From Natronomonas moolapensis 8.8.11 (GTDB taxonomy: Archaea; Halobacteriota; Halobacteria; Halobacteriales; Haloarculaceae), in assembly GCF_000591055.1 (NCBI RefSeq), contig NC_020388.1, positions 1,736,001 through 1,800,000 on the forward strand: a stretch of DNA of 64,000 nucleotides, written 5' to 3'. The position numbers were made by a program, and so were the translations under genes. Below, one piece after another: positions 7,322 to 10,196 of this stretch. The notes beneath the pieces were generated by a model that ran no database searches, had not been told where the DNA came from, and saw nothing but the letters and a program-made list of their open reading frames with translations. Each line of letters opens with the position of its first letter. Position 1 is the stretch's first letter.

Positions 7322-7493
7322 GCGGGCGTTCTGTCGACTGCCGTGCCGCTGGCCTCGTCGGATGAATTATATACGATCGGGCGACCAGACCGCCCGTGCG
7401 CTGACGAGTCGCGGTCGGCCCCCGAGGCGGGAGCACGGGGACGGGTCGATCGGACGCTTCCCCGTCTGTTCGCTATCTTCCAACAGCGAGAGA

Positions 7494-7617
7494 ATCCCGC
7501 CCTTCCCGCGAAGGACGAGCGTTCCGACGCTCTGTCGGAACCGAGGACTGAGTCGTTCGAAAATCGAAGAGTTTCGTGATCACGAGAGACTTTGTCTCTC
7601 GGACGACAGGGCGGGAG
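7494..7617. other. Multi-hairpin intergenic region upstream of the TnpB unit
   Basis: This lies in the 409-base gap 7322-7730. An outer stem of nine pairs is formed by TCCCGCCCT (7495-7503) and AGGGCGGGA (7608-7616). Inside are a perfect 8-bp hairpin GTTCCGAC/GTCGGAAC (7521-7541), TTCGA-AAA-TCGAA (7556-7568), the palindrome TCGTGATCACGA (7574-7585) and CGAGAGAC-TTT-GTCTCTCG (7583-7601). The last two overlap and are mutually exclusive. No convincing reading frame covers it. It could be the left end of the IS element, an expanded right-end remnant of an older one, or a structured RNA. The rest of the gap holds an AT-rich promoter-like stretch near 7676-7712. Confidence 0.6.
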
Positions 7618-7730
7618 TGAATCGCGTAAGCTCCGTGCCACAATCTCCGTGACCGTTGCCTGACTGAATACCCAACGTACGTATTTAGTAGGGCAAAAAC
7701 GTACAAAATATTGTGCGAACGGAGATAGAT

Positions 7731-7856
7731 ATGGAGCGCGGTGGCGACCTTCACGAGCGGGTCAAAGAGTACGCCCGTGAGAATGGTATCCGTCATCCGC
7801 GTGCCTACCGCGAGCTAATCGAACAAGGGTTAGAGACGGATGGAAACGACGACTAA
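7731..7856 (+). CDS. 41-residue ribbon-helix-helix-like leader protein of the TnpB unit
   Basis: A tiny gene whose last 17 bases overlap the tnpB start. The peptide is charged (MERGGDLHERVKEYARENG, then IRHPRAYRELIEQGLETDGN), with one helix, a turn and a second helix ending in ELIEQGL, reminiscent of CopG/Arc ribbon-helix-helix proteins though short. An AAAATATT box lies about 20-27 bases upstream. The overlap implies co-transcription and coupled translation with tnpB. A role as repressor or partner of the nuclease is an inference; I cannot assign a family with certainty. Confidence 0.65.
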   Translation: MERGGDLHERVKEYARENGIRHPRAYRELIEQGLETDGNDD

Positions 7857-9111
7857 GACGCTCGAAGCGACCCTCGCCCCGCCGACAGCACACAAGGAGC
7901 GGAAACTGTGTGACCTACTCGAAACCTACCGTGAGGGGCTTCACGAGGCGTTCGACGCCGGGTGTGACACGATGAGCGCTACCAGTGACGTGGTGACGCC
8001 CTACGACCTTCCGTATCAGGCGAAAGCGGCACTGTGCAACTACGTCCCACAACTCCACGACACCTACGACGCACAAGAGTTGGACGACGACCACCCGGTT
8101 CGGCTCACCAACCAAGCCGCCGAGTTTGACCACTCTCCGGCGCGAGACTACGAGTTTACGTGGTGGGCACCGCAACCCGGACGAGGGACGAATTTCTGGA
8201 TACCGCTTCGTATCAATCCCGAACAAGAGGGTCTGTGGCACGACCTCGTAGACGGGGACGCTTCGGCGGGACAACTCCGACTGCAACAGAATCGCACATC
8301 GTGGATGTTACACGTCACCGTCGAATTTCCGGTCGAAGAACCCGACTACGCGACGGACGGCGACGACGTGACGCACATCGGTCTGGACATTGGTGAAACC
8401 GCCCTGATAACGGGCTGTGCCCTCAAGGACGGTTCACCAACTGGCCCGTTCGTGTGTGACGGGAGCCGTACGAAGCATCTTCGCAAAGAGATGCACACGA
8501 CCCTGAAGCGACTCCAAGAGCGTGATGCCGCCGAGTGGCGGATAGACGAGCGATTCGACCACTACCAGAACGCGCTCACCGATATTGTCGAGAAAGCGTC
8601 TTGGCAGGCTGTCGAGTACGCCCGACAATTCGAGAATCCGGTACTCGTGATGGAGAATCTGACGTACATCCGCGAAGAATTGGACTACGGTTCGTACATG
8701 AACCGGCGGCTCCATGCGTGGGCGTTCGCTCGGTTACAGAACCGCGTTGAGGACAAGGCACGAGAGACTGGTATCCCTGTCGAGTACGTCCGACCGGAGT
8801 ACACCAGCCAGACGTGCCACGCTTGCGGCCACATCGGAAACAGAGCCGCACAAGCCACGTTCCGGTGTACCAACGACGGGTGCCACGTTACGGAGTTTCA
8901 GGGCGATATAAACGGCTCAATCAACGTTGCACAACGGGCTGACCCGTGGGGAGAGAGCGTGCCGCTGAAACCGGCAGGCAATGACTCGCTTCGGGATGGG
9001 AGTGCCTGTGACAGCACCGCGACCCATCGAGAGACGAGCGAGAAACACTCGCAAGTGACTCTCTCGGCGTTCCACGGGTCGGAACTCTCTACCAGCAACA
9101 GCGAAACTTAG
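7840..9111 (+). CDS. tnpB: TnpB, RNA-guided endonuclease of an IS200/IS605 element
   Basis: A 423-residue transposon-encoded nuclease, ancestor-type relative of Cas12, that cuts DNA matched by an omega RNA made from the element's right end. All three RuvC acidic residues are present: Asp183 in IGLDIGE, Glu272 in LVMENL and Asp356 in QGDINGSINVA. The zinc finger is Cys326/Cys329 (CHACG) and Cys343/Cys348. So the protein looks catalytically intact, not a decayed TldR-type regulator. No tnpA transposase gene lies beside it, so movement would need one supplied from elsewhere. The unit sits between the rubrerythrin-like gene and purM. A Ser/Thr-rich tail follows the nuclease domain. Confidence 0.93.
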   Translation: METTTKTLEATLAPPTAHKERKLCDLLETYREGLHEAFDAGCDTMSATSDVVTPYDLPYQAKAALCNYVPQLHDTYDAQELDDDHPVRLTNQAAEFDHSPARDYEFTWWAPQPGRGTNFWIPLRINPEQEGLWHDLVDGDASAGQLRLQQNRTSWMLHVTVEFPVEEPDYATDGDDVTHIGLDIGETALITGCALKDGSPTGPFVCDGSRTKHLRKEMHTTLKRLQERDAAEWRIDERFDHYQNALTDIVEKASWQAVEYARQFENPVLVMENLTYIREELDYGSYMNRRLHAWAFARLQNRVEDKARETGIPVEYVRPEYTSQTCHACGHIGNRAAQATFRCTNDGCHVTEFQGDINGSINVAQRADPWGESVPLKPAGNDSLRDGSACDSTATHRETSEKHSQVTLSAFHGSELSTSNSET

Positions 9112-9164
9112 CTGGTATTCCCCATGCGTGGGAAGCCGCACCGTTCACGGCGCGGAGGATGTCA
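9090..9164 (+). ncRNA. Predicted omega RNA scaffold and right end of the TnpB element
   Basis: Three successive stems can be drawn across the tnpB 3' end. TACCAGC (9090-9096) pairs with GCTGGTA (9111-9117) across the stop codon. TTCCC (9118-9122) pairs with GGGAA (9130-9134). CCGCACCG (9136-9143) pairs with CGGCGCGG (9148-9155) with one mismatch and a TTCA loop. The right end closes with GGAGGATGTCAC, a string found again at the other element near 38008. In known TnpB systems the guide is the 16-20 nt directly downstream; here that would be purM 3'-terminal sequence, antisense to purM. Structure is seen; function is inference from the family. Confidence 0.6.
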
Positions 9165-10142
9165 CAGCTCCAGTCCGCGGATCTCGACGCCGTCACCGGA
9201 CTCGACACGACCGATGATCCGTGCGTCCTCTATTGCATCGACGACCGCTTCGACGTCCGTCTCGGGGAGCGCGGCGACGAAGCCGGTTCCCATGTTGAAC
9301 GTCCGGTACATCTCCTCGTCGGCGACTCCGCCTTCCGCCTGGACGAACTCGAATATCGGCTGTGGGTCGAAGGCGTCCTCGATCACGTAGCGGCGCTCGC
9401 CCATCCGTTCGAGATTCGTCCACCCGCCACCGGTGATGTGAGCCGTCGCGTGGGTTTCGACGGCTTGTAGCGGTTCGAGAGCGTCGCGGTAGATTCGCGT
9501 CGGTTCGAGCAGCACTTCGCCGATGGTCCGGTCCTCGTCGTAGGGGAACGGATCGGTGTAGGCGTGGTCCTTCGTCACCGCCTCGCGCGCCAGCGTCAGC
9601 CCGTTCGAGTGGATTCCTGACGACGGGACCCCGACGAGGCGGTCACCCACCTGCGCGTGGCCGTCGAACAGCTCCGTTTCGGTCGCCAGTCCAGCACAGG
9701 CACCGGCGAGATCGAGCCCGCGTATCACGTCGGGCATCACCGCCGTCTCGCCGCCGACGAGCGCGACCCCGGCGCGCTCGGCTCCGGCGGCGAGCCCGTC
9801 ACCGACCCGTTCGGCCGTTTCGTCGTCCGGCGTCTCGACGGCGAGGTAGTCGACGAACGCCACTGGCGTGACTCCGGCCGCGATGAGGTCGTTGGCGTTC
9901 ATCGCGATGCAGTCGATGCCGATCGTCGAGTAATCGTCGAGCGCTTCGGCGACGAGCAGCTTCGTCCCGACGCCGTCGGTCGCCAGCGCCAGGTACCGAT
10001 CGCCGATGTCGATCAATCCGGCGTAGTCGCCCTCGAACTCGCCGATCGCGCCGAGTAGCGCCGCCGTCGCCGCTTCGCTTTCGTCGATATCGACGCCCGT
10101 CTCGGCGTATGTGAGCCCCTCCTCGGGGTCGTCGTCGCTCAT
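9162..10142 (-). CDS. purM: Phosphoribosylformylglycinamidine cyclo-ligase
   Basis: A 326-residue AIR synthetase, fifth step of purine synthesis, closing the imidazole ring with ATP. Recognisable segments are LALATDGVGTKLLVAE, GIDCIAMNANDLIAAGVTP (the nucleotide/Mg region), VGGETAVMP and the C-terminal HITGGGWTNLERM. ATG at 10142 was chosen over an upstream non-ATG extension. Its TGA stop (9162-9164) lies inside the GTCAC terminus of the TnpB element's right end, so the element is inserted exactly at the 3' end of this gene without shortening the recognisable protein. Confidence 0.96.
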   Translation of the reverse strand: MSDDDPEEGLTYAETGVDIDESEAATAALLGAIGEFEGDYAGLIDIGDRYLALATDGVGTKLLVAEALDDYSTIGIDCIAMNANDLIAAGVTPVAFVDYLAVETPDDETAERVGDGLAAGAERAGVALVGGETAVMPDVIRGLDLAGACAGLATETELFDGHAQVGDRLVGVPSSGIHSNGLTLAREAVTKDHAYTDPFPYDEDRTIGEVLLEPTRIYRDALEPLQAVETHATAHITGGGWTNLERMGERRYVIEDAFDPQPIFEFVQAEGGVADEEMYRTFNMGTGFVAALPETDVEAVVDAIEDARIIGRVESGDGVEIRGLEL

Positions 10143-10196
10143 ACCAGACCCGGCGGCCGAACGGGGCAAAAGCGCGTCGGTTGCCCCCGTGGGCGA

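Follow-up and report, generated by a model that had tools for sequence, protein, structure and literature searches.

The window, the whole 64,000-nucleotide stretch of Natronomonas moolapensis 8.8.11 DNA analysed here, carries between about 7473 and 9165 what is, judged by sequence, a TnpB-only IS200/IS605 (IS1341-type) element with subterminal palindromes. Its features, including a 54-bp repeat lodged within the left end, are as follows.

7473-7552, plus strand: outer part of the left end, bounded by CTATCTT; in many genomes the repeat boundary falls at query positions 12-14, and the flanks differ outside it
7501-7514: hairpin CCTTC/GAAGG, in the outer part of the left end
7517-7532: hairpin GAGCGT/ACGCTC, an alternative that overlaps GTTCCGAC/GTCGGAAC
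7521-7541: hairpin GTTCCGAC/GTCGGAAC, in the outer part of the left end
7553-7606, plus strand: 54-bp two-hairpin mobile repeat (the 54-mer), between G7552 and C7607
7553-7557, plus strand: left tag TCGTT of the 54-mer, proposed left guide, conserved in a 79-copy alignment
7558-7576, plus strand: hairpin 1 of the 54-mer, CGAAAATC..GATTTTCG in relatives and slightly degenerate in the window; double changes at 6 of 8 pairs
7574-7585: palindrome TCGTGATCACGA
7577-7582, plus strand: spacer TGATCA of the 54-mer, proposed right guide, its position 5 complementary to right-end position 4
7583-7601, plus strand: hairpin 2 of the 54-mer, CGAGAGAC-TTT-GTCTCTCG; double changes at 4 of 8 pairs
7602-7606, plus strand: right end GACGA of the 54-mer, proposed right cleavage site (from the 79-copy alignment and the spacer/end complementarity)
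7607-7633, plus strand: inner part of the left end, with the downstream strand of the outer stem at 7608-7616; in copies without the 54-mer it follows 7552 directly
7731-7856, plus strand: 41-aa ORF read from the sequence, overlapping the start of tnpB; its plasmid homolog is annotated as a hypothetical protein
7840-9111, plus strand: tnpB, 423 aa (Pfam PF07282, E 2.8e-16); its homolog is annotated as an RNA-guided endonuclease TnpB family protein
9130-9165, plus strand: right end of the element, GGGAAGCC...GGAGGATGTCAC; identity with two other loci (L334, L335) ends after TGTCAC

The Cas12f1-like TNB domain (PF07282) encoded by tnpB and the left-end palindromes are the features that place the host among TnpB-only IS200/IS605 elements; a Pfam search of the 41-aa ORF returned no match. 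The right end, which we take to be the omega-RNA 3' hairpin, contributes through its TGTCAC (9160-9165) the TGA that closes a purM-like ORF (9162-10169, minus strand), so the element sits at the 3' end of the purM-like gene. The whole element is also found on the Haloarcula sp. CBA1115 plasmid NZ_CP010532.1, 94.5% identical to the window up to 9165 and with the small ORF and TnpB annotated, and there exactly 54 nucleotides (7553-7606) are missing from the left end. Across the 12 nucleotides to the left of 29 left-end copies, nothing was conserved outside CTATCTT, unlike the fixed left target expected for IS200/IS605 elements.

The initial annotation had described 7494-7617 as a densely structured 124-base region in which a 9-bp outer stem encloses three hairpins and a palindrome, with overlapping alternatives that suggested a switchable fold. 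Its structural description was borne out: TCCCGCCCT (7495-7503) pairs with AGGGCGGGA (7608-7616), every other named feature is present, and the region folds better than all 200 shuffles on either strand (plus strand, minimum free energy -59.2 against -44.2 +/- 3.7 for the shuffles, z -4.12; minus strand, z -3.73; 0/200 shuffles as good on each). A search of relatives found 7473-7552 and 7607-7660 as adjoining blocks in many genomes, and 7552-7607 on its own elsewhere. As far as such comparisons of sequence go, the region is a composite in which one mobile element is nested in another, rather than a single switchable RNA. This nesting had been overlooked in the earlier reading: 7553-7606 is a separate insertion, and copies exist in which the equivalents of 7552 and 7607 are adjacent.

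Besides the plasmid copy, 28 other distinct left ends lack 7553-7606, the empty junction 7552/7607 gave 48 local matches (duplicates included), and the 54-mer is also present in unrelated contexts. Among the collected loci, exact empty sites were recovered for 10 of the 28 contexts tested, with no target duplication; they lie in tnpA at two positions, in tnpB tails, in transposon ends and in the hairpin GGGAAGCCTCGGGG^CTTGACCCCGAGGC, presumably an omega-RNA 3' hairpin. The insertion point is between G and C, although one of the empty sites reads G^T. Comparison of filled and empty sites in this way shows that the 54-mer was inserted precisely at G^C with no target bases duplicated; it is found in many contexts and genera. 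It is hardly credible that the 54-mer instead belongs to the left end by origin and has been lost from other copies. Two element types do have filled left ends (that of the window, and that of L009 and L010 with other inner sequence), and L042 is also filled, but the 54-mer is seen in tnpA, in the tails of tnpB and within other repeats as well, its absence from most left ends is precise to a single base, and other left ends (L022, L335) hold a different two-hairpin insert. At a further locus (L012), the left-end repeat lies upstream of tnpB in a differently organised element. Among the identities first considered for the region, the left end of the element is the one that fits, given the position upstream of tnpB in the window, in the Haloarcula plasmid copy and at locus L012, whereas the data neither demonstrate a new small RNA nor call for one.

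Copies of the 54-mer follow a common plan, TCGTY - hairpin - TGAT(C/G)A - hairpin - (A/G)AC(G/C)A, and are 54 nucleotides long in 80 of 97 unique copies. BLAST searches with the 54-mer gave matches in 99 of 195 relatives and 36 of 56 genera, and scanning a single genome of each species for the pattern yielded 88 stretches, of which five bacterial ones are probably due to chance; six such matches (the five bacterial and one on a viral contig; L069, L080, L107, L114, L152, L156) were left out. With few exceptions, the named carriers are Halobacteria. A covariance model built from 79 copies (E <= 1e-4, 19 candidates scored per genome) matched 50 of the 53 genomes sampled from the host order, the non-matching ones being those listed in the scan result; in the rest of the phylum it matched 5 of 241. 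The organism's own genome holds at least 14 places at the same threshold, with 150 of 1925 candidates scored. Sorted by their flanks, the copies fall into 31 clusters, located in genes, transposon ends and intergenic repeats. After 38 copies near contig edges were set aside, 46 pattern copies were evaluable; by a small query panel, 16 of them had tnpA or tnpB no more than 1.5 kb away and the remaining 30 had neither; the 54-mer is therefore not limited to recognisable IS200/IS605 elements. At L225, L226 and L286-L300, the 54-mer is embedded in a longer repeat that itself recurs, ..CGCTCGCTG^CGCTCCTC.., away from recognised tnpA or tnpB and in several cases after AAAGCCCC. One locus (L027, the same as L153) is MITE-like, its left end with a degenerate 54-mer almost abutting the right-end hairpin and no tnpB between them.

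Both hairpins of the 54-mer vary in a coordinated manner. Across the 79 copies, the two-hairpin fold had 97.0% of cells paired and 10 pairs (51 cells) changed on both sides, which none of 500 shuffles equalled, the percentage paired being inflated by an alignment largely pre-filtered for hairpin arms with at most one mismatch. The comparison was repeated without the structure filter on 84 copies found by pattern, at two positions that the pattern leaves free. The varying pair of hairpin 1 was A-T in 73 copies, G-C in nine and G-T in two; that of hairpin 2 was G-C in 52 and A-T in 16, with no mismatch in the 68 copies readable with a 3-nt loop, 16 of the 84 having another hairpin-2 geometry and being set aside. 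The corresponding p values, 1.5e-10 and 6.8e-16, are counted in sequences rather than in evolutionary events. These paired substitutions show that both hairpins have been maintained through compensatory change. The loops are mostly of 3 nt and mostly read GAA, TTC, GGA or TCC (70 of 84 copies for hairpin 1), and a single context can show both orientations, a change that inversion of the hairpin tip would explain.

The search for compensatory change gave a divided answer, positive for these two hairpins and negative for the long alternative hairpin, whose covariation score fell below its shuffles (500/500 as high); with the long form failing in this way and the two-hairpin fold covarying over 79 copies, the proposed switch between folds is not supported. 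For the left-end stem the test is uninformative: in an alignment of 28 distinct left-end copies, each about 107 nucleotides long without the 54-mer, 98.5% of cells were paired and no pair carried a compensatory change. The fold of the left end is not altered by the 54-mer, which becomes one more arm of its multiloop. With DNA energies, the two hairpins (-15.9) are favoured over the long form (-11.0), whilst RNA energies favour the long form, a difference that fits a role at the DNA level. A small RNA with a regulatory or guide role upstream of tnpB, or a riboswitch-like conformational switch there, would account for the strong fold on both strands and for two mutually exclusive structures, the longer preferred by RNA energies. 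We nevertheless consider such an RNA very unlikely, as the alternative does not covary, a search of 7494-7617 against Rfam matched no family, the 54-mer is missing from the element's closest named relative, and the 54-mer recurs in genes, transposon ends and intergenic repeats.

The ends of the 54-mer show a second kind of complementarity. Of 286 strand readings, 285 have a spacer base 5 that is complementary to base 4 of the right end (C/G in 200 and G/C in 85, with one exception), a copy being entered for both strands when both passed the filter; these counts come mostly from two sequence types and may represent few evolutionary events. In type ii copies, which combine TGATGA with ACCA, the outer stem is broken at that position and the complementarity between spacer and end is retained. 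On the left side, CG stands in both tag and target without variation, which is compatible with a guide. A G before and a C after the insert were seen in 24 of 26 typed contexts, and CGNNG preceded it in 15 of 26, compared with 5 of 26 on the mirror side (10 of 15 against 2 of 15 among type ii contexts, in which position -5 is C in 13, position -4 is G in 11 and position -1 is G in all 15). An independence filter applied to this target motif left no new contexts, and the window's own left flank, CTGAG, is a partial fit. Targeting of hairpin loops was considered and is not supported, junction unpairedness being 0.28 against 0.27 at control GC dinucleotides (p 0.28, 23 contexts after five near-duplicates were dropped from 28). 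In the IS200/IS605 and REP systems, bases 5' of the hairpin choose the cleavage site. According to the accessible text of PMC8266576, cutting by REP transposases takes place at a dinucleotide chosen through the tag, and one REP consists of an 8-bp stem with a 3-nt loop. From the spacer/end complementarity together with this precedent, we infer that the 54-mer is a minimal left-plus-right-end unit for a Y1 transposase.

In 11 loci, the 54-mer is placed before the HUH motif of a 132-aa IS200-type TnpA (PF01797, 1.8e-39); it lies between codons and adds an in-frame TGA in most copies, with GGA in L151. Outside the inserts, 8 of the 11 filled copies are free of other stops or frameshifts, and the dN/dS of filled and empty alleles (ratio of means) is alike at 0.089 and 0.079. 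A tree was built from 24 of 31 rows, 10 of them filled and 14 empty, after seven had been excluded (L246, L247, L253, L254, L256, L239, L099), the second insert of L151 removed and the alignment trimmed to 342 nt. Its branches imply seven label changes, at least four of them forced by well-supported branches, with support low on most inner ones. Filled and empty alleles therefore alternate in a manner that indicates frequent gain or loss of the insert, by transposition or recombination. The tnpA of L151 carries two 54-mers (at about 646 and 751), one on each side of the HUH motif, and that of L085 seems to have recombined between two insert sites with loss of the motif.

Three other accounts of the tnpA insert were set aside. 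An in-frame coding insertion is opposed by the TGA of most copies, translation through which is unsupported; by eye, two tnpB contexts, one in the tail and one N-terminal, were seen to keep an open frame. Ribosome bypass or removal from the RNA was considered because the filled copies are mostly intact outside the inserts and alike in dN/dS, but since filled and empty alleles alternate, recent gain or loss explains this, and inspection by eye turned up no matching take-off and landing codons. A BHB intron was dismissed on the reasoning that the flanks have only G and C in common.

Homologous recombination among tnpA copies could carry the insert without transposition, and a broader possibility is that the 54-mer was formerly mobile and now spreads only through homologous recombination and as a passenger of the IS200/IS605 elements, MITEs and other repeats that carry it. 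Near-identical tnpA alleles that differ by the insert (L057, filled, against L231 and L233, empty; L151 against L234) are consistent with such spread, as are the recurrence of contexts between species with mostly consistent subtype and the fact that several contexts are themselves parts of transposable elements. We regard this as unlikely, because the 54-mer has sharp G^C junctions in 28 or more contexts, which requires many past insertion events. The reading we favour, and judge to be probable, is that the left end of a TnpB-only IS200/IS605 element has been interrupted by a 54-bp non-autonomous repeat that is a minimal substrate of a Y1 HUH (TnpA-type) transposase and is moved in trans. Under this proposal, a single-strand transposase of that type would act on the 54-mer as a left end joined to a right end. 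The tag TCGTT, 5' of hairpin 1, would guide the left or target site (preferably CGNNG^C), and the spacer TGAT(C/G)A, 5' of hairpin 2, would guide the right end, AC(G/C)A. The excised single strand would then join between G and C; in the present left end, it would have added an arm to the multiloop and left the host fold undisturbed.

Other two-hairpin inserts were encountered at these loci. A second family with different stems, TTGA - hairpin - TTCGCACA - CCAGA..TCTGG - GGA, occurs at L022 and L335 (both left ends), L045, L098, L159 and L192, and some of its copies lie within the same left end. Further two-hairpin inserts interrupt tnpA at CPK|YRH, where they are about 51 nt long and at least two leave the frame open, and also at VWC|CPK (L246, L247, L253, L075, L098, L255, L099).

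A search of the literature on archaeal and haloarchaeal palindromic or mobile repeats, with subscription papers mostly outside its scope, found no paper on the 54-bp family. The closest described repeats are the SMR-A of Haloquadratum walsbyi (HqIRS42, HqIRS43 and HqIRS55), reported in 2011 as transposase-less short mobile repeats of 'enigmatic' mobilisation (PMC3119063). As characterized in the available text of that paper, SMR-A share with the 54-mer inverted ends, the lack of a transposase and of target duplication, an unexplained mobiliser, and a position in near-terminal palindromes of IS605-type elements or PATEs; the 54-mer lies also in tnpA, tnpB tails and intergenic repeats. SMR-A are highly conserved within one species, whereas the 54-mer has divergent stems and occurs in most sampled haloarchaeal genomes, a comparison made by description only. 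At about 110 bp they are also longer than the 54 nucleotides typical here, and we therefore class the 54-mer as SMR-like and not as a member. Relative to SMR-A, what is new is a shorter, order-wide family with readable ends. Terminal-only PATEs of IS605-type elements (52 bp), described in the same text, are of similar size, consist of fused left and right palindromic ends and are possibly mobile. They derive, however, from core deletion of a named parent, and neither a full-length parent with the ends of the 54-mer nor a dedicated transposase was found among the data examined.

The inverted pair of tagged hairpins that defines REPINs is present in the 54-mer. To the extent of the accessible text of PMC3733652 and PMC8266576 (see also PMC3116915), REPINs and REPs resemble it further as short tagged hairpins in inverted pairs, believed to be mobile without a gene of their own, with a dinucleotide cleavage logic and intragenic copies. 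They are reported there from bacteria, with GTAG or CGTC tags and a RAYT transposase for GTAG, unlike the archaeal host and TCGTY tag seen here. CGTC-tagged REPs are described in PMC3733652, as far as accessible, by stems of 8-9 bp that start with AT pairs, loops of 4-5 and a CCA tail; the 54-mer departs from these rules with 8-bp stems that start with CG, loops mostly of 3 nt and inner TGA/TCA tails. Its tag reads TCGTT or TCGTC. Rickettsia palindromic elements, in the same partial account, are likewise palindromic repeats within protein genes, but the tnpA insert usually brings an in-frame TGA, and the coding insertions recognised here are in transposon genes. Archaea are reported, in the available part of PMC6006769, with only TnpAY1 subclass 1.1.

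More tentatively, and as a possibility that we would not yet call the likelier one, the family may be an order-wide archaeal counterpart of REPINs. It would then be a guide-coded 54-nt unit of single-strand transposition, composed of both ends only and moved in trans by Y1 transposases, that lodges in the very transposons that supply them, including tnpA (stop-bearing alleles being otherwise intact), with a two-hairpin plan common to at least three unrelated families. The exact insertion site, the conserved ends and the complementarity between spacer and end make the question of how SMRs are mobilised directly testable. The locus also carries a warning, that a structured stretch in a haloarchaeal transposon end or omega-RNA may be a nested mobile repeat rather than a new RNA.
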